Below, piece by piece: positions 15,598 to 22,473 of a stretch of 58,068 nucleotides of DNA. The number at the start of each line of letters is the position of its first letter. The first letter of the stretch is position 1. A program made the translations under genes and the position numbers. The stretch is from an uncultured SAR86 cluster bacterium (lineage in GTDB: Bacteria > Pseudomonadota > Gammaproteobacteria > Magnimaribacterales > AG-339-G14): assembly GCA_902578495.1 (NCBI GenBank), contig CACHCY010000005.1, forward strand, positions 1 through 58,068. The letters are read 5' to 3'. Under the pieces are notes generated by a model that saw only the letters and a list, made by a program, of their open reading frames with translations, was not told the DNA's origin and did no database searches.

Positions 15598-16668
15598 ATG
15601 CAATATTTAACAGACAATACTAGGATTAAAGGGCTTCTTGAGGTAACACCTCCAATAAAGCTGATTGACAAGTTACCACTGTCTTCAAAAGCATCAAAGC
15701 TGGTTTACGAATCAAGAAATGAACTATCCTCAATTCTTAAGCAAGAAGACGACCGTTTGATGGTTGTAGTAGGTCCATGCTCTATTCATGATCCAAAGGC
15801 TGCCCTAGAATATGCTAAAAAATTGAAGCCATTTGCTGATAATCTATCGAAAGAACTCAAAATAGTGATGAGGGTTTATTTCGAAAAACCTAGGACCACA
15901 ATTGGATGGAAAGGATTGATAAACGATCCAGATATTGATAATAGTTTCAATATTAATAAAGGACTCAAAACTGCAAGGAAACTTCTATTAGAAATAAATG
16001 AAATAGGATTACCTGCTGGAACCGAATATCTCGATATCATCACTCCTCAATATATCTCTGATTTAATAACTTGGGGAGCCATTGGTGCTAGGACCACTGA
16101 GAGTCAGATTCATAGAGAGCTAGCCTCTGGTTTATCCTGTCCTGTTGGATTCAAAAATAGTACTAATGGTTCAGTCAAAGTAGCAGTTGATGCTTTGAAA
16201 GCTGCCAGTCATTCACATATCTTTTTATCTATAACTAAAGAGGGTAAGTCAGCCATCTTCAACTCGGCAGGAAATCAGGATTGCCATGTAATCCTTAGGG
16301 GAGGAAGTGAACCTAATTATAAAGATAAAGATATAAAGGAAACATCAAAAATACTTAAAGAAAACGGATTAATAGATTCTGTTATGGTTGATATGAGTCA
16401 TGGAAATAGCAGTAAACAATTCAAAAAACAGTTAATAGTAAATCAAGACCTTTGTAATCAAATATCTTCTGGATCAAAAAATATCATTGGAGTAATGATT
16501 GAAAGCAATTTAATTGAGGGAAATCAAAGCTCCGATAAAAAAGATAAGCTTAAATACGGACAAAGTATCACCGATGCTTGCGTGGGTTGGGAAGATACAG
16601 AAATTATGCTGAACTTGCTTTCTAGTGCTGTCAAAAATCGAAGACAGAATATGAAGGTTTCAGCATAA
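15598..16668 (+). CDS. aroG: 3-deoxy-7-phosphoheptulonate (DAHP) synthase, class I
   Basis: This enzyme condenses PEP and erythrose-4-phosphate, the entry step to aromatic synthesis. The 356-residue protein has VVGPCSIHDPKAALEYA near residue 58, RVYFEKPRTTIGWKG near 93, GARTTESQIHRELASGLS near 164 and VDMSHGNSSKQ near 266, the standard AroF/G/H motifs. Which feedback isoform it represents cannot be read reliably from sequence, so the symbol is generic. A GAAG sequence lies about six bases before the ATG. The next gene begins directly after its stop, so the two are very likely co-transcribed. Confidence 0.94.
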   Translation: MQYLTDNTRIKGLLEVTPPIKLIDKLPLSSKASKLVYESRNELSSILKQEDDRLMVVVGPCSIHDPKAALEYAKKLKPFADNLSKELKIVMRVYFEKPRTTIGWKGLINDPDIDNSFNINKGLKTARKLLLEINEIGLPAGTEYLDIITPQYISDLITWGAIGARTTESQIHRELASGLSCPVGFKNSTNGSVKVAVDALKAASHSHIFLSITKEGKSAIFNSAGNQDCHVILRGGSEPNYKDKDIKETSKILKENGLIDSVMVDMSHGNSSKQFKKQLIVNQDLCNQISSGSKNIIGVMIESNLIEGNQSSDKKDKLKYGQSITDACVGWEDTEIMLNLLSSAVKNRRQNMKVSA

Positions 16669-17580
16669 ATGTCTGAAAAGAAATACTCGTTCTCAAAAGA
16701 AATTGCTGAATCTCTTGGAATTACTGAAGCAATAATTCTAGATTTTTTTCAAAATAATCGAGAAAACTTTTCTTTGGATAATCTCAAGAATGAATTTAAA
16801 TTTCTAGGTGTTTCACAAATAGAAAATTCTTATAAAAAACTTAATCATTTAGGCCTTTTCAAAAATATTTCTGCGATAGACAATGCTTCTAAGCCAGATG
16901 AAAAGGATGATTTTTATCCTAGTGAAGATCTTATTAAGCAAGCAAGCAATTTAGGAATCGAAGAGGATTTTTTAGGAGATCAGTTACCAAGCTTTAATTT
17001 ATTTTGGAAAGGAAAAGAGTTAAAGCCGCATTCAAAGGAGTCAAAATTTCTTCAATACGCTTTAAAAAATTGGAGGGAAAAGGAAAAAATTGAATATCAA
17101 GAATCGAAAAAAGTTCTTATAAATAGCAACTGGCTGCCTTCAGAAGATGCGATGTCAATTCTTAAAAGTCTTAACATGAATGATTCTTTCATTGAAAGCC
17201 TTCTGCCAGAATTTATTCTATTCTGGAAAGAAAAAAGGATTAAATCCAATTCTTGGAATTCCACTTTTTTAAATCATGCAAAAAAACAATGGGCTAGAAA
17301 GAAATTTAAGCTCGATAGTGATAAAGAAAATCATCCTATGTCAAAAAATTGGCTGCCCAGCGAGGATTGCTTAAAGGTTTTGGAAGTATCAAATATTCCA
17401 GTTGATTTCATAGAATCAAAATTACCTGAATTTAGACTTTATTGGATTGATGCAGGAGAAATTTCTTCAAACTGGAATAATAAATTTATAAACTTTTTAA
17501 AAAACTCTTGGGAAAAGGATTCAAAAAAAAGTTCTAATATATTGGACAGACTTGCTAATACTGAATGGGCGAAAAAGTAA
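16669..17580 (+). CDS. Winged-helix protein with three DnaT-like ssDNA-binding domains (candidate primosome/helicase-loader partner)
   Basis: I recognise this 303-residue protein by domain, not by name. Residues 1-75 look like a winged helix (IAESLGITEAIILDFFQ, then LGVSQIENSYKKLNHLGLF), resembling the N-terminus of phage O-type replication proteins. Three copies of a ~56-residue unit follow at about 82-137, 155-210 and 228-283, each with PSED, a hydrophobic helix, LPEF-L-W and W-x-x-F...W. This pattern matches the DnaT C-terminal ssDNA-binding domain. The repeats are exactly 73 residues apart (Pro84, Pro157, Pro230). The gene starts directly after the aroG stop and overlaps the next gene by 16 bases. 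A role in origin melting or helicase loading is inferred. Confidence 0.72.
   Translation: MSEKKYSFSKEIAESLGITEAIILDFFQNNRENFSLDNLKNEFKFLGVSQIENSYKKLNHLGLFKNISAIDNASKPDEKDDFYPSEDLIKQASNLGIEEDFLGDQLPSFNLFWKGKELKPHSKESKFLQYALKNWREKEKIEYQESKKVLINSNWLPSEDAMSILKSLNMNDSFIESLLPEFILFWKEKRIKSNSWNSTFLNHAKKQWARKKFKLDSDKENHPMSKNWLPSEDCLKVLEVSNIPVDFIESKLPEFRLYWIDAGEISSNWNNKFINFLKNSWEKDSKKSSNILDRLANTEWAKK
16912..17517 (+). repeat. Three tandem in-frame protein-domain repeats (219-base period)
   Basis: Three diverged copies of a DnaT-like domain lie within one gene. Their conserved Pro-Ser-Glu-Asp starts fall at codons 84, 157 and 230, a constant 219-base period. The copies have diverged at nucleotide level, so this is an old internal duplication held at constant spacing rather than a recent DNA repeat. 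Confidence 0.8.
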
Positions 17581-18152
17581 AAATTCCTAACAATCACATA
17601 GAGTTGGTTAATCTAATTTTTGCTCAATTAGAAATTACCTATCACAATCAATTTCATAAAGCTTTTAAGGATGAAGTTAGTTTAAATTTAGCAAAACAAT
17701 TATGGCTTAAGAAATTAGAAATCTTCTCTCAGGATTTAATATTTGAAGCTATTGATGAACTGACTTCAAAATCAAAATTTCTTCCTTCGCTTAGTCAAAC
17801 GCTTGAACAAATTAAAAGCCATTATTTAAAAAAAGAGGGAATTAAATCTATTGAATCTGCTTTTGCCGAGGCTTGTTTAGGGTCGGATGATCCTGAAAAT
17901 TTCAAATGGTCGCATCCTTTAGTGTATGAAACAGCTAAAAACTTTGGTTGGGCAGATCTCAGACGCTCTGAAGAAAGAATAGGTTTTGAAAAGTTTCAGT
18001 CTCTTATGTCGGATTCGATAAAGGATTATCTAAGTGATGCTAATAATTTTTATCTTCCAGAATCAAATACAACAAAAGAAAGTAGAACTAATTTGTCTCA
18101 AGAAGAACAAATTCATCTTCTTGAAAAATTAAAAGAAAAGCACTCTATTTAA
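17565..18152 (+). CDS. Lambda P-like replication protein (putative replicative-helicase loader)
   Basis: The 195-residue protein resembles the phage lambda replication protein P family, which binds DnaB and delivers it to the origin. Visible matches are a helical N-terminal half with QLWLKKLEIFSQDLIFEAI, the KFLPSLSQTLEQI turn at 71-83 (equivalent to FLPSPGQF of lambda P), and WSHPLVYETAKNFGWADLRR at 115-134. No Walker motif is present, so it is not DnaC/DnaI, and it does not look like DciA. It overlaps the DnaT-domain gene by 16 bases, so the two products are probably made together. The surroundings are housekeeping genes, not a prophage. The family call is by eye and should be confirmed by a profile search. 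Confidence 0.68.
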   Translation: MGEKVKIPNNHIELVNLIFAQLEITYHNQFHKAFKDEVSLNLAKQLWLKKLEIFSQDLIFEAIDELTSKSKFLPSLSQTLEQIKSHYLKKEGIKSIESAFAEACLGSDDPENFKWSHPLVYETAKNFGWADLRRSEERIGFEKFQSLMSDSIKDYLSDANNFYLPESNTTKESRTNLSQEEQIHLLEKLKEKHSI

Positions 18153-18239: not shown

Positions 18240-19310
18240 ATGAAATTTTTAAGCTCAATCTTAAAATCGATTTTCTCGATTTCTAACCTACAATCTGCAG
18301 GAATATTTTTATTTTTTGCTTCCATCTGGATGATCTCAGGTTTTTTTGTAGAAAATGAAATTCCAACCAAACAAGTTGTTATCGAGGAAACTATAGTCAG
18401 AGTAATGAAACAATCTGCTCAGCCTTTCTCAAGAAATATTGTTCTAAAAGGTTCTGCGGAAGCAGATAAAAATATTCAATTAAGAGCGGAGACCTCTGGT
18501 CAGGTTATTGGTCTTCCAGTTGCGCAAGGACAATTTGTAAAAAAAGGTAGCCCGATATGTCAAATTTTTGTTGGGGACAAAGACGAAGTAGCGAAAGAAG
18601 CTTCTTTAAATTACGAAACTGCAAAAAAATTATTTGATGAGGGTCTATATTCGAATAGCCAACTTCAAGCTACAAAAGCAAGATACGAAAGAGCTTTTCA
18701 AGATCTAGACTTTGCATCTGTAAAAGCTCCTTTTGATGGAATAGTTGATAGGATTGATCTTGATGTAGGAGACTTTCTACCAAGACAAGGCATTTGCGCT
18801 ACAGTATTAGATCTTAATCCAATTCTTATTTCTGCAGAGATATCTGAAAATGATATGTCGGAAATTTCTCTCGATTCTAAGGCAAAAGTTGAGTTAAATA
18901 ATGGAAAATTTTTTGAAGGCGATGTTAAATTTATTTCATCATCTGCTAACCCAGTCACAAGAACATTTAGAGTTGAAATTTCGATCCCTAATCCAGAATC
19001 TGAAATAAAAGATGGTATGACTTCTGAAGTAACCCTTAAAGGAATAGAACGATTAGCTCATCTGGTTCCAGTTTCAGTTCTACGTTTAGATGCTAATGGT
19101 GATTTAGGTATCAGAACCATTGATGGGGATGGCCTAGTCGCCTTCAAATCAATTGAACTTATTGAAGACACTAGCTTTGGAGCTTGGATAACTGGTCTTG
19201 ATACTATTTCAACAATCATAACAGTCGGACAAGATTACGTATCCCAAGGAGAAAAAGTAGGTATAGCTTTAGATAGCAGATTTACAAACTCTAATGAAAG
19301 GATTAATTGA
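18240..19310 (+). CDS. RND efflux periplasmic adaptor (HlyD/MFP family)
   Basis: The adaptor links an inner-membrane RND pump to an outer-membrane channel. The 356-residue protein has an N-terminal membrane anchor at about residues 19-37 (FLFFASIWMISGFF), no lipobox, then a barrel-sandwich lipoyl half (RAETSGQVIGLPVAQGQFV), a short alpha hairpin, VKAPFDGIVDRIDLDVGDF and a beta-barrel domain. The hairpin is short, so it may not span far. Its end overlaps the pump gene by 17 bases. The exported substrate cannot be predicted, and no outer-membrane factor is encoded in the window. Confidence 0.9.
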   Translation: MKFLSSILKSIFSISNLQSAGIFLFFASIWMISGFFVENEIPTKQVVIEETIVRVMKQSAQPFSRNIVLKGSAEADKNIQLRAETSGQVIGLPVAQGQFVKKGSPICQIFVGDKDEVAKEASLNYETAKKLFDEGLYSNSQLQATKARYERAFQDLDFASVKAPFDGIVDRIDLDVGDFLPRQGICATVLDLNPILISAEISENDMSEISLDSKAKVELNNGKFFEGDVKFISSSANPVTRTFRVEISIPNPESEIKDGMTSEVTLKGIERLAHLVPVSVLRLDANGDLGIRTIDGDGLVAFKSIELIEDTSFGAWITGLDTISTIITVGQDYVSQGEKVGIALDSRFTNSNERIN

Positions 19311-22300
19311 TTTTTTTGTAGATCGATACAGAACTACCTTAACAATGATGTTCCTCGTTTTAACATGGGGAATTTTTTCTTACGGTCAAATACCTAATGC
19401 CTCTGAACCAGATATAGATGTTCCCTTTGTTATGGTCAGCACCTTCTACGAAGGTGTTTCACCAGAAGATGCGGAAAGACTTATCTCGAGACCAATCGAG
19501 AAAAGACTTTTAACAGTAGATGATGTCAAAGGAGTTCAATCATATAGTAGATTGGATTTTTCCACTGTTATCGTTGAGTTCCCAAATGATTTTGACCCAG
19601 ACATTGCAAAAACAAATGTCAGAGATGCTGTAGATGAGATAGCTTTTAAATTGCCTACTGATGCTGAAGAGCCAATGGTCAATAACTTCAATTTTTCAAG
19701 ATTTCCAATAATGCGAGTAAATCTTGTATCCAATGAATTATCAAAAAGAGAGCTTAATTATATCGCTAAAGATTTAAGATCAGACGTTGAAAGTATCCCA
19801 CTTGTCCTTGAAGCAAATTTAGCTGGTGTACCAGAAGATCTTTTGGTGGTTGAAGTTGATAGAACTAGATTAGAGAGTTTCGGTATAACAGCTCAAGATT
19901 TTTATAATGCAATCTCTCAAAATAATAGAGTAATACCTGCCGGTTTAATAACAACAGGCACCGGCACATTTGCTGTTAAAGTTCCTTCGATTTTTGAAGA
20001 TGTTGGTGATGTAAGGAAAATACCACTTATAAAAAGGGGAAACGCTGTTATAAGAATAGAAGATGTAGCTGAAATAAGAAGGTCTTACAAAGATCAAGAA
20101 ACTTATGCAAAGGTCAATGGCAAGAATACCGTTGCTATAGAAGTAGTAAAAAGAACCGATGCCAATGAGCTAGATGCAGTTGAAGCCATCAATAAACTTT
20201 TGGATCAGAAAAGAGAACTTTATCCTCCTTCTCTTGAAATAGTCATCACAGAAGATAGAACTGCTTGGAATACAGTTATGTTGGAAGAGCTTATGGGTAA
20301 CGTAATTACTGCCTTAGTGTTGGTAATGGCAGTTGCTTTGGCTACCATGGGCATTAGATCTTCATTAATGGTAGGTGCTGCTATTCCTTTATGTTTCTTC
20401 TTTGGAATGATAATTCTAAATGCATACGGAACGTCGTTTAACTTTCTAGTCTGTTTTGGAATACTTATTTCTCTAGGAATGTTGATTGATGGAGCTGTAG
20501 TTGTAATTGAATTTGCCGATAGAAAAATGGCAGAGGGATTAGATAAAACAACAGCTTATAAACTAGCAGCAAGAAGAATGTTTTGGCCGGTAATAGCATC
20601 CAATCTGACGACTTTAGCGGCTTTTTTTCCCCTTCTTTTTTGGGACTCTCTTTCTGGAAGCTTCCTAAGAACTCTTATTGTCACTGTATTTGCTGTCCTA
20701 GGTGGGTCTCTTATCTATGCACTTCTATTTACTCCTGCAATAGGATCTTTGTTTGGCAGTATTGGAAATAGGAGCCAAGAGTCAATTCAAAACACCTCAA
20801 AGTTAGAAAATGGTGATCCCACTGAACTTCCTGGAATAACAGGTGCCTATGCTAGATCATTGGACTTTATTCTATCTAGGCCTATTCAAGTATTATTCTT
20901 TGTTATCCTACTTGTTTATACAATTTTTCTTTTGCAGGCAAGACATGGCGCGGGCTCAACTTTTTTTGCAGAAGGTGAACCAACCTTCGTCAGTGTAAAT
21001 GTTGAAGCTAGAGGAAATTTAAATGCTAATGAAAAATTAGAACTTATTGAGCAGATTGAAGATGAGCTTGTTCAAATTCCAGAAATCATAAAGCTATCAA
21101 CCTTTACTGGTGGAAACTCTGCTGGAGACCCTAGAAGTAGAGGATCATCGGACGGTATTGGTGGATTCATGGTCGAACTAGCATTTCTTGAAGAGGATGA
21201 AATTATTGGAGGCCTTAATGGCTATCAAGTGCTGGATCAGATCAGAGGTATAAGTAATGAATTTCCGGGTCTTAAGTTTAATGTCAGGAGAGAAGAAGGA
21301 GGACCACCTATTGATGCTCCAATTGAAATTGATATCTCAGGACAAAATTCTAGAGTTGTTTACGAAGCCACTATAGCTCTTGAAGAGTTCATGAAGTCAT
21401 CAATTGATGGAGTAGACAACGTTAAAACTACAATTCCAGTTAGAAAAATTGAATGGGCAATGGATATTGATAAAGAAAAAGCTTCGTTATTTGGGGTCTC
21501 TACTTCTGAAATCGGAGCAGCTGTTCAATTTGTTACAAATGGCCTCAGACTTGGTGAATATAGACCAGAAGACGTTGAAGATGAAGTTGAAATTAGAGTT
21601 AGATATCCTGAGTCTGAAAGAAGGCTAGATCAACTGGGAGAACTAAATATTCCTACTCGAGAAGGATTGATGCCTCTTAGTAGTTTTGTTGAAGTGGTTC
21701 CAAAACTTGATGTTCCTTCAATAAGAAGAGTTGATGGGGAAAGAGCTTATACAGTAACAGCTGATTACTTGGAAAATGCAGTTCCTTCAAACGTGATTTC
21801 TCAGATTAATACCTGGATAGATGAAAATATCGAATTTAACCAAATTAGTTTTAATTTTGGTGGAGAGCAAGAGGAAACCGAAGAGGCGGCTGCTTTTTTT
21901 GCTACGGCTGGAATGATCTCAATTTTCCTTATGGCTATGCTTCTTGTTACTCAATTAAATAGTTTTTATCAGGCTTTTGTCATTGTATTTGCCATAGTTC
22001 TATCAACTGCAGGCGTACAGTTAGGCCTCTTAGTAACTCAATCTCTTACCAGCGTATTATTTACTGGATTATCAGTTGTGGCTTTAGCTGGAATTGTTGT
22101 TAATAATAATATTGTGCTTGTTGATACTTATAATGTTTTAAAAAGAAACTCTATCAATTTAAAAGAGAAAGACATCCTTATTAGAACCTGTGCTCAGAGA
22201 TTAAGACCTGTTTTCTTGACCTCATTCACCACTGTAGTCGGATTAATGCCTCTAGCTAGTAGTATTGGTGTAGATTTCATTTCAAGAGAAATTGGTGTTG

Positions 22301-22473
22301 GCGGAAGAGTAGCTATTTACTGGCAACCCCTTGCCTTTGGCCTGGTTTGGGGTTTATCTTTTGCTACTATACTAACTCTCTTTGTGACTCCAGCATGGCT
22401 AATTTTGCCTTCGAGACTAAGGGAAATTTTTTCAAAATTTGAAATATTCAGTAAAAAAGTAAATGTCCAGTAG
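19294..22473 (+). CDS. RND-family efflux pump, inner-membrane permease
   Basis: The 1059-residue protein has the classical RND layout: TM1 near the N-terminus, a large periplasmic loop, TM2-6, a second large loop and TM7-12. It aligns with AcrB-type hydrophobe/amphiphile pumps rather than SecDF. The proton-relay positions differ from AcrB: the TM4 pair reads Asp399-Gly400 (LIDGAVVV) where AcrB has Asp-Asp, and TM10 has Asn937 (GIVVNNN) where AcrB has Lys. Related RND subfamilies also deviate here. It overlaps the adaptor by 17 bases and xseB by 11, tying efflux to the isoprenoid genes downstream. Confidence 0.93.
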   Translation: MKGLIDFFVDRYRTTLTMMFLVLTWGIFSYGQIPNASEPDIDVPFVMVSTFYEGVSPEDAERLISRPIEKRLLTVDDVKGVQSYSRLDFSTVIVEFPNDFDPDIAKTNVRDAVDEIAFKLPTDAEEPMVNNFNFSRFPIMRVNLVSNELSKRELNYIAKDLRSDVESIPLVLEANLAGVPEDLLVVEVDRTRLESFGITAQDFYNAISQNNRVIPAGLITTGTGTFAVKVPSIFEDVGDVRKIPLIKRGNAVIRIEDVAEIRRSYKDQETYAKVNGKNTVAIEVVKRTDANELDAVEAINKLLDQKRELYPPSLEIVITEDRTAWNTVMLEELMGNVITALVLVMAVALATMGIRSSLMVGAAIPLCFFFGMIILNAYGTSFNFLVCFGILISLGMLIDGAVVVIEFADRKMAEGLDKTTAYKLAARRMFWPVIASNLTTLAAFFPLLFWDSLSGSFLRTLIVTVFAVLGGSLIYALLFTPAIGSLFGSIGNRSQESIQNTSKLENGDPTELPGITGAYARSLDFILSRPIQVLFFVILLVYTIFLLQARHGAGSTFFAEGEPTFVSVNVEARGNLNANEKLELIEQIEDELVQIPEIIKLSTFTGGNSAGDPRSRGSSDGIGGFMVELAFLEEDEIIGGLNGYQVLDQIRGISNEFPGLKFNVRREEGGPPIDAPIEIDISGQNSRVVYEATIALEEFMKSSIDGVDNVKTTIPVRKIEWAMDIDKEKASLFGVSTSEIGAAVQFVTNGLRLGEYRPEDVEDEVEIRVRYPESERRLDQLGELNIPTREGLMPLSSFVEVVPKLDVPSIRRVDGERAYTVTADYLENAVPSNVISQINTWIDENIEFNQISFNFGGEQEETEEAAAFFATAGMISIFLMAMLLVTQLNSFYQAFVIVFAIVLSTAGVQLGLLVTQSLTSVLFTGLSVVALAGIVVNNNIVLVDTYNVLKRNSINLKEKDILIRTCAQRLRPVFLTSFTTVVGLMPLASSIGVDFISREIGVGGRVAIYWQPLAFGLVWGLSFATILTLFVTPAWLILPSRLREIFSKFEIFSKKVNVQ

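Follow-up and report, generated by a model that had tools for sequence, protein, structure and literature searches.

A probable dopC/dopE-type DnaB loader in SAR86 bacteria and its apparent reduction to a single protein in two families

An overlapping gene pair in a stretch of 58,068 nucleotides from a SAR86 bacterium (the whole stretch is called the window here) is probably the SAR86 form of dopC/dopE, a phage-derived loader of the helicase DnaB that would replace DciA and DnaC. On the same reading, two families of the SAR86 order lost the body of DopE independently, and the C-terminal helix of DopE was joined to the end of DopC to give a one-protein loader. SAR86 is an abundant bacterial group of the surface ocean. 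The window pair itself belongs to a known but little-tested kind of loader, and it is the reduction series within SAR86 that is new. The evidence is computational. It consists of homologies, synteny, searches in which the known loaders were not found, the disappearance of DopE, the presence of its tail on DopC and two origins of the DopE-less state on a tree of neighbouring genes. In the literature covered here, DopE is listed among the loader families in a 2026 paper (PMC13326638), DopC and DopE get no more than a mention as a loader family without a mechanism, no paper links SAR86 with DnaT, and no SAR86 stands among the matches listed for DciA and helicase.

Gene order at the SAR86 locus

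The contig that holds the window belongs to an assembly of 1.18 Mb that is 88% complete, and all the features described below lie on its + strand. An aroG-type gene for DAHP synthase (15598..16668; PF00793, 316 bits) is followed by ORF1, the dopC-like gene of 303 aa (16669..17580), which starts directly after the DAHP synthase stop. ORF1 overlaps ORF2, the dopE-like gene of 195 aa (17565..18152), by 16 bases. A reading made earlier from the sequence only had described two overlapping genes right behind a DAHP synthase gene, and these coordinates agree with it exactly. Downstream of the pair lie a gene for an HlyD-family adaptor (18240..19310; PF16576, 80.9 bits) and one for an RND transporter of the AcrB family (19294..22473; PF00873, 501.8 bits). 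No recognised phage gene is found among the window ORFs from 13.5 to 22.5 kb, in agreement with the earlier remark that phage genes do not surround the pair.

The same neighbours recur throughout the order. In the long SAR86 loci read, the genes follow one another as aroG, dopC, dopE where present, HlyD and RND pump, as far as each stretch reaches. aroG precedes dopC in every SAR86 locus whose fetched stretch covers its position, and in many of the long loci a divergent nadE lies upstream. The position after aroG, for which the sequence-only reading had suggested a survey of related genomes, is thus kept within the SAR86 order. The order aroG-dopC-dopE is also seen in a genome outside the SAR86 order (G243), in DNA of 68% G+C.

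Domains of the DopC-like protein

In a Pfam scan, ORF1 matches PF17948 (DnaT) with 173.1 bits against a cut-off of 25 (E 9.1e-52) in three stretches, which confirms the three DnaT-like domains that had been read in it. The first copy (16906..17085) is the weakest with 44.7 bits, and the second (17119..17304) and third (17335..17529) score 68 and 73.8 bits. A winged helix in front of these domains had been claimed as well. A SAR86 homologue (L153) shows it in its AlphaFold2 model at residues 10-80, and by alignment to this part of the model a winged-helix domain is probable in the window protein, at approximately 16681..16863. The suggestion that the triple-DnaT layout is unusual did not hold, for three copies were also found in 4/4 non-SAR86 homologues tested with Pfam. 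Many other SAR86 genera have two copies.

A search of the DopC profile against solved structures returned six distinct sequences up to E 1, all of them DnaT. With a DopC model as query, the fold search yielded nothing at E <= 0.001, and a DnaT domain (6aeq) appeared at E 0.77. All the Pfam matches of ORF1 and ORF2 other than PF17948 and PF06992 are under their cut-offs, and NCBIfam gave no match for either ORF up to E 1. The DciA family (PF05258) is absent from the Pfam scan of both, in which no AAA+ domain was found up to E 1 either. Against phage records, only weak matches were obtained, four for the window DopC and five for the window DopE. With DnaT (primosomal protein 1, PF17948), DopC shares the DnaT DNA-binding domain, but it differs from DnaT in having two or three copies of it, a probable winged helix in front and a lambda-P-like partner, and in that no DnaC was found in the genome.

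Lambda P likeness of DopE

ORF2 passes the cut-off of PF06992 (Phage_lambda_P) with 28.5 bits against 26 (E 1.5e-6) and matches phrog_109, annotated as 'P-like helicase loader', with 55.6 bits (E 1.4e-14), so its earlier description as a lambda-P-like protein stands. The PF06992 cut-off is passed in only 66 of the 199 genomes of the order, and the SAR86 DopE profile recovers many more.

The AlphaFold2 model of the window DopE has a mean pLDDT of 84.9 and falls into three parts. The helical body (residues 11-157; 17595..18035), with pLDDT mostly around 90 and conserved columns, includes the W-S-H-P motif at residues 115-118. It is followed by a linker (residues 158-178; 18036..18098) with mostly low pLDDT and little helix. 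The C-terminal helix (residues 179-192; 18099..18140) is proposed to be a latch for DnaB on the basis of the helix in the model, the tail statistics given below and a C-terminal counterpart in lambda P. Foldseek ranks lambda P in its complex with E. coli DnaB as the best PDB match of the model (9oa1 chain Z; E 1.8e-4, prob 1.00). VIA-align places residues 8-195 of the model on residues 33-228 of lambda P over 183 residues with an rmsd of 7.7 and a Z of 11.5, though the tool cautions that helical bundles can commonly give Z values below about 13. SPP1 G39P (1no1) comes second (Z 8.4, 67 residues, rmsd 1.9), and the first row that is not a loader has a Z of 4.7. The likeness to G39P is one of fold and is confined to the N-terminal half of the DopE model, and the sequence match is weak (E 0.024). 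The end of the lambda P sequence aligns with the DopE tail under profiles A4 and A5, the A5 alignment having low per-residue confidence there.

Phage lambda P (PF06992; 6bbm, 8v9s, 8v9t, 9oa1, 9oa2) and DopE thus share the fold, the Pfam match and a loose stretch that leads into a C-terminal helix. They differ in that their identity in the structural alignment is 13% and that the gene of DopE is chromosomal. Moreover, the partner of DopE carries DnaT repeats, whereas lambda P has lambda O as its partner.

Searches for the known loaders in the SAR86 order

DciA and DnaC/DnaI presumably do the same job as DopC/DopE, but the proteins are unrelated. By a PF05258 search that was positive in 7/14 control genomes, DciA was found in none of the 199 SAR86-order genomes (0/199), 40 good ones included. 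It was also not found in the window's own genome, at the 88% completeness of that assembly, where the sequence-only reading had proposed to look for it. PF01695, the family that holds DnaC, gives weak matches in 193/199 genomes of the order, the best with 39 bits. Nearly all of those listed lie in frames of 370-518 aa, which is the length of DnaA, and they stand at the contig start in several single-contig genomes. Among the matches listed for the order, there is accordingly nothing for DnaC beyond weak, mostly DnaA-sized cross-matches.

The DnaT domain (PF17948) occurs in 170 of the 199 genomes and in 39 of the 40 good ones. Among the 29 in which it was not found, all the seven queried are without the locus's aroG as well (7/7; both controls matched, 2/2), and in one (G012) the expected region of the locus is partly N, so that absence there is uninterpretable. 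With this occurrence and its fixed neighbours, the pair has resident chromosomal status in the lineage, and it is not patchy within the order apart from the losses of DopE. The proposal that it is the resident loader in place of DciA or DnaC is supported by the absence of DciA, by the weakness of the DnaC cross-matches and by the fixed place of the pair.

Relatives outside the order and possible donors

An alignment scan of named genomes with DopC kept 80 loci of 227 relatives, 19 of SAR86 type and 61 others. The others include Spongiibacter, Zhongshania, Teredinibacter, Cellvibrionaceae, Luminiphilus and Porticoccaceae, which belong to Cellvibrionales, and Thalassolituus, Bermanella and Oceanobacter of Oceanospirillales. 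A DopE-like ORF adjoins DopC in 53 of these 61 loci. In Pfam tests of non-SAR86 proteins, 4/4 DopE pass the PF06992 cut-off, just as the 4/4 DopC have their three DnaT domains. Eight loci are without DopE. The contig ends at dopC in one of them (L178), and the remaining seven (L155, L159, L163, L195, L202, L205 and L223) have a DopC that neither adjoins a DopE nor bears the tail described below; their DopE may lie elsewhere, or they may need neither DopE nor tail. In L202, L205 and L223, DopC stands directly behind a radA-like gene; the Pfam scan of this gene in L202 gives KaiC-type ATPase, zinc-ribbon and Lon-like domains. L155 is a MAG titled Klebsiella pneumoniae with a Cellvibrionales-like DopC locus, and the assembly is probably mislabelled or chimeric.

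Brezellec reportedly named dopC and dopE in Cellvibrionales in 2017 and proposed that they form a third kind of loader for DnaB. The pairs seen here in Cellvibrionales and Oceanospirillales, which are direct homologues of the window pair, are presumably these published genes, in keeping with the reported absence of other loaders in Cellvibrionales. With dopC/dopE as reportedly described, the window pair shares the adjacent and overlapping arrangement, a DopC with three DnaT domains, a DopE of the lambda P family and genomes without dciA or dnaC. An earlier paper reports the order Cellvibrionales to be without dna[CI] and without dciA (Brezellec et al. 2016, PMC5109545). The window pair was filed as dopC/dopE because of its homologous Cellvibrionales pairs, this report and the 2017 paper. 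In contrast to other dopC/dopE, the SAR86 pair lies behind aroG, its DopC is shorter and has two or three DnaT copies, and two SAR86 families are without DopE and carry the tail on DopC.

In a survey of the class, DciA was found in 243/303 genomes. PF17948 matched in only 9/303, although Cellvibrionales homologues are many in named genomes, and the survey was used solely for the contrast between DnaT and DciA. The genomes with at least two DnaT matches are all DciA-negative (6/6) and those with one match are all DciA-positive (3/3), a contrast with a probability of 4.9e-5 if the six genomes are independent and of 0.008 for three lineages. P-like genes of phrog_109 occur in 20 genomes of the class, and since 12 of these 20 carry DciA, a P-like gene alone is no marker of a resident loader.

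Two further arrangements were seen in the class. MEX2-MAG4 (G201; L213/L139), a genome of 1.5 Mb in the same class and outside the SAR86 order, has a DopC with three DnaT domains and a short DopE without the half that bears W-S-H-P, and this pair is not beside aroG. A protein of 385 aa in G358 (L140:5371-6528), a class genome outside the DciA-positive rows, resembles a natural DopC-DopE fusion. Its N-terminal part has a weak likeness to DopC (14.5 bits), and its C-terminal part resembles the first half of DopE plus a tail (42.6 bits with A1; 17.1 with the Pfam lambda P family, below its cut-off).

The viral contigs L228-L232 (IMG/VR) encode proteins of 166-214 aa with two DnaT-like domains and, near their end, D-(R/S)-S-W-A, which resembles the end of many DopC. 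A D-(R/T)-S-W-A-like motif is kept at or near the C-terminus of non-SAR86 DopC and viral DnaT proteins. In L228, the DnaT-like gene is followed by GemA and Mor genes of Mu type, confirmed with Pfam. A gene for a DnaT protein overlaps a P-like gene on the viral contig L235 and in the prophage-like locus L145 (G464). L228-L232, L235 and L145 are plausible as kinds of donor, and are meant as nothing further.

Loss of DopE and the tail on DopC

The SAR86 genomes fall into four families, f1 to f4. At E <= 0.001, the DopE profile matches in 36/40 genomes of f1 and 87/103 of f3 (123/143 together) and in none of f2 (0/35) or f4 (0/21), that is, in 0/56 for these two. Three weaker rows, such as an f2 match of 58 residues at E 0.085, were left uncounted. 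The DnaT domain is found in 122/143 genomes of f1 and f3 and in 48/56 of f2 and f4. Two single-contig genomes, G005 of f2 and G008 of f4, are both DopE-negative by the profile. In those loci of f2 and f4 that were read, the HlyD gene comes directly after dopC, and aroG, dopC and hlyD are contiguous. An assembly gap was therefore rejected as the cause of the absence of DopE in f2 and f4, the locus being contiguous without dopE and the profile finding nothing in any of their genomes.

The DopC of f2 and f4 ends as DopE does, with L-x-x-L-(K/R)-x-K-(H/Y)-x-I and small variation. The occurrence of this tail was counted in complete ORFs with a profile score of at least 90 from loci in which HlyD or RND matched, one for each distinct sequence. 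The pattern, which was defined after inspection of the tails, is present in 25/25 distinct DopC from SAR86 loci without DopE, in 0/49 from loci with DopE and in 46/49 SAR86 DopE (3/49 miss it). It is present in 0/858 control ORFs, which are ORFs of at least 100 aa from the fetched loci, 285 of them from SAR86 loci, with gene status unchecked. With a matrix made from the SAR86 DopE tails, all the 25 DopC exceed the 99th percentile of the control ORFs and 23/25 exceed every control. One made from non-SAR86 DopE tails separates poorly, its 99th percentile being passed by 4/44 DopC without DopE, rows that mix viral and non-SAR86 sequences, and by 11/75 of the DopE group, which is mixed too. Outside the main group, the tail is borne by the DopC of one SAR86 locus that ends before hlyD (L160), the sole match among the other 73 rows.

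The last ten residues of DopC are 65% identical between members in f2 and 64% in f4, and the preceding ten 22% in each. The tail of an f2 DopC is modelled as a helix at residues 347-360 behind a low-confidence stretch. The DopE of genus g11, which belongs to f3, has only 147 aa and consists of the N-terminal half and the tail (2/8 genomes read). The DopE of G243, outside the order, is without the tail.

Placement of the DopE-less families

A tree of aroG, HlyD and RND gives the topology ((f1,f2),(f3,f4)), each family with an SH-aLRT of 100. It comes from a quick search on 33 loci and represents neighbour genes rather than independent species markers, and the branch of f4 is long in it. Forcing f2 and f4 into one clade costs 67 log units and is rejected (p-AU 6e-12). 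In a tree of DopC only, f2 and f4 form a basal grade of SAR86 with weak branches. The neighbour-gene tree is preferred because the DopC tree contains the trait itself and its branches are weak. Since DopE is present in f1, in f3 and beyond the order, there were apparently two separate losses, each of which left the tail on DopC.

Alternative explanations

The pair could be thought a prophage leftover rather than a resident loader, as related pairs of DnaT and P-like genes occur in the prophage-like locus L145 and on the viral contig L235. This reading is hardly credible and was rejected: the pair has a fixed place between aroG and the HlyD/RND operon, with no recognised phage gene in the 13.5-22.5 kb part of the window, and is found throughout the order, whereas the genome of the prophage-like pair (G464) has DciA. 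A function in restart only, in which DopC would be a DnaT-type partner of PriA/PriB with DopE as its helper, and DnaB would reach the origin through some other loader or with no dedicated one, is quite improbable. It would suit the solved relatives of DopC, all of which (six distinct, up to E 1) are DnaT and go by the name of primosomal protein 1 or replication restart protein. However, the absence of both DciA and DnaC accompanies the pair, DopE resembles lambda P, which is a full helicase loader, and at least DopC has been retained across an order of small genomes.

As to the tail, it is rather unlikely that the end of DopC in f2 and f4 is unrelated to DopE, being a basic helix that arose by chance or convergence, for example for contact with DNA or SSB, in families that use some other loader. 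The tail is short and lysine-rich, it matches strongly with SAR86 DopE tails only, and no trace of a fusion was seen at the DNA level, all of which would fit such an origin. Against it stands the distribution of the tail, which no end of the 858 control ORFs matches and which divides the DopC without DopE (25/25) from those with it (0/49). The tail is also present in both DopE-less families and conserved above its linker, and neither DciA nor, among the matches listed, DnaC was found in f2 or f4.

Proposed mechanism and implications

In the DopC/DopE loader as proposed, DopC would provide DNA binding through its winged helix and its DnaT repeats for single-strand binding. DopE would act like lambda P, its helical body and its linker-borne C-terminal helix holding DnaB, and the last helix would dock on the linker-helix module of DnaB. 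According to a cryo-EM study, the C-terminal segment of lambda P reaches the linker helix of DnaB, an assignment of sequence to density that its authors call tentative (PMC6391071). DciA, DnaC and lambda P are all reported to bind the LH-DH module of DnaB (PMC9912922). We infer three things, namely loading of DnaB by the pair, binding of the tail to DnaB and arrival of the tail on DopC through a fusion with dopE. The tail on DopC would then suffice as the DnaB latch in f2 and f4 and leave a one-protein loader. The chances seem about even that two SAR86 families do use such a twice-evolved loader, made of a string of DnaT domains and a terminal helix of lambda P type of about 12 residues, with this helix alone as the essential DnaB latch.

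If this is true, a helicase loader would be reducible to holding single-stranded DNA and hooking DnaB, without an AAA+ domain or the body of lambda P. SAR86 would offer a natural deletion series that runs from the whole DopE through half a DopE with the tail, in genus g11, to the tail alone on DopC, apparently reached twice. This series singles out a short peptide and is consistent with the LH-DH module as the place where DciA, DnaC and lambda P meet DnaB. SAR86 extends the range of DopC/DopE by a whole order, and the question of what a minimal helicase loader is would become directly testable.
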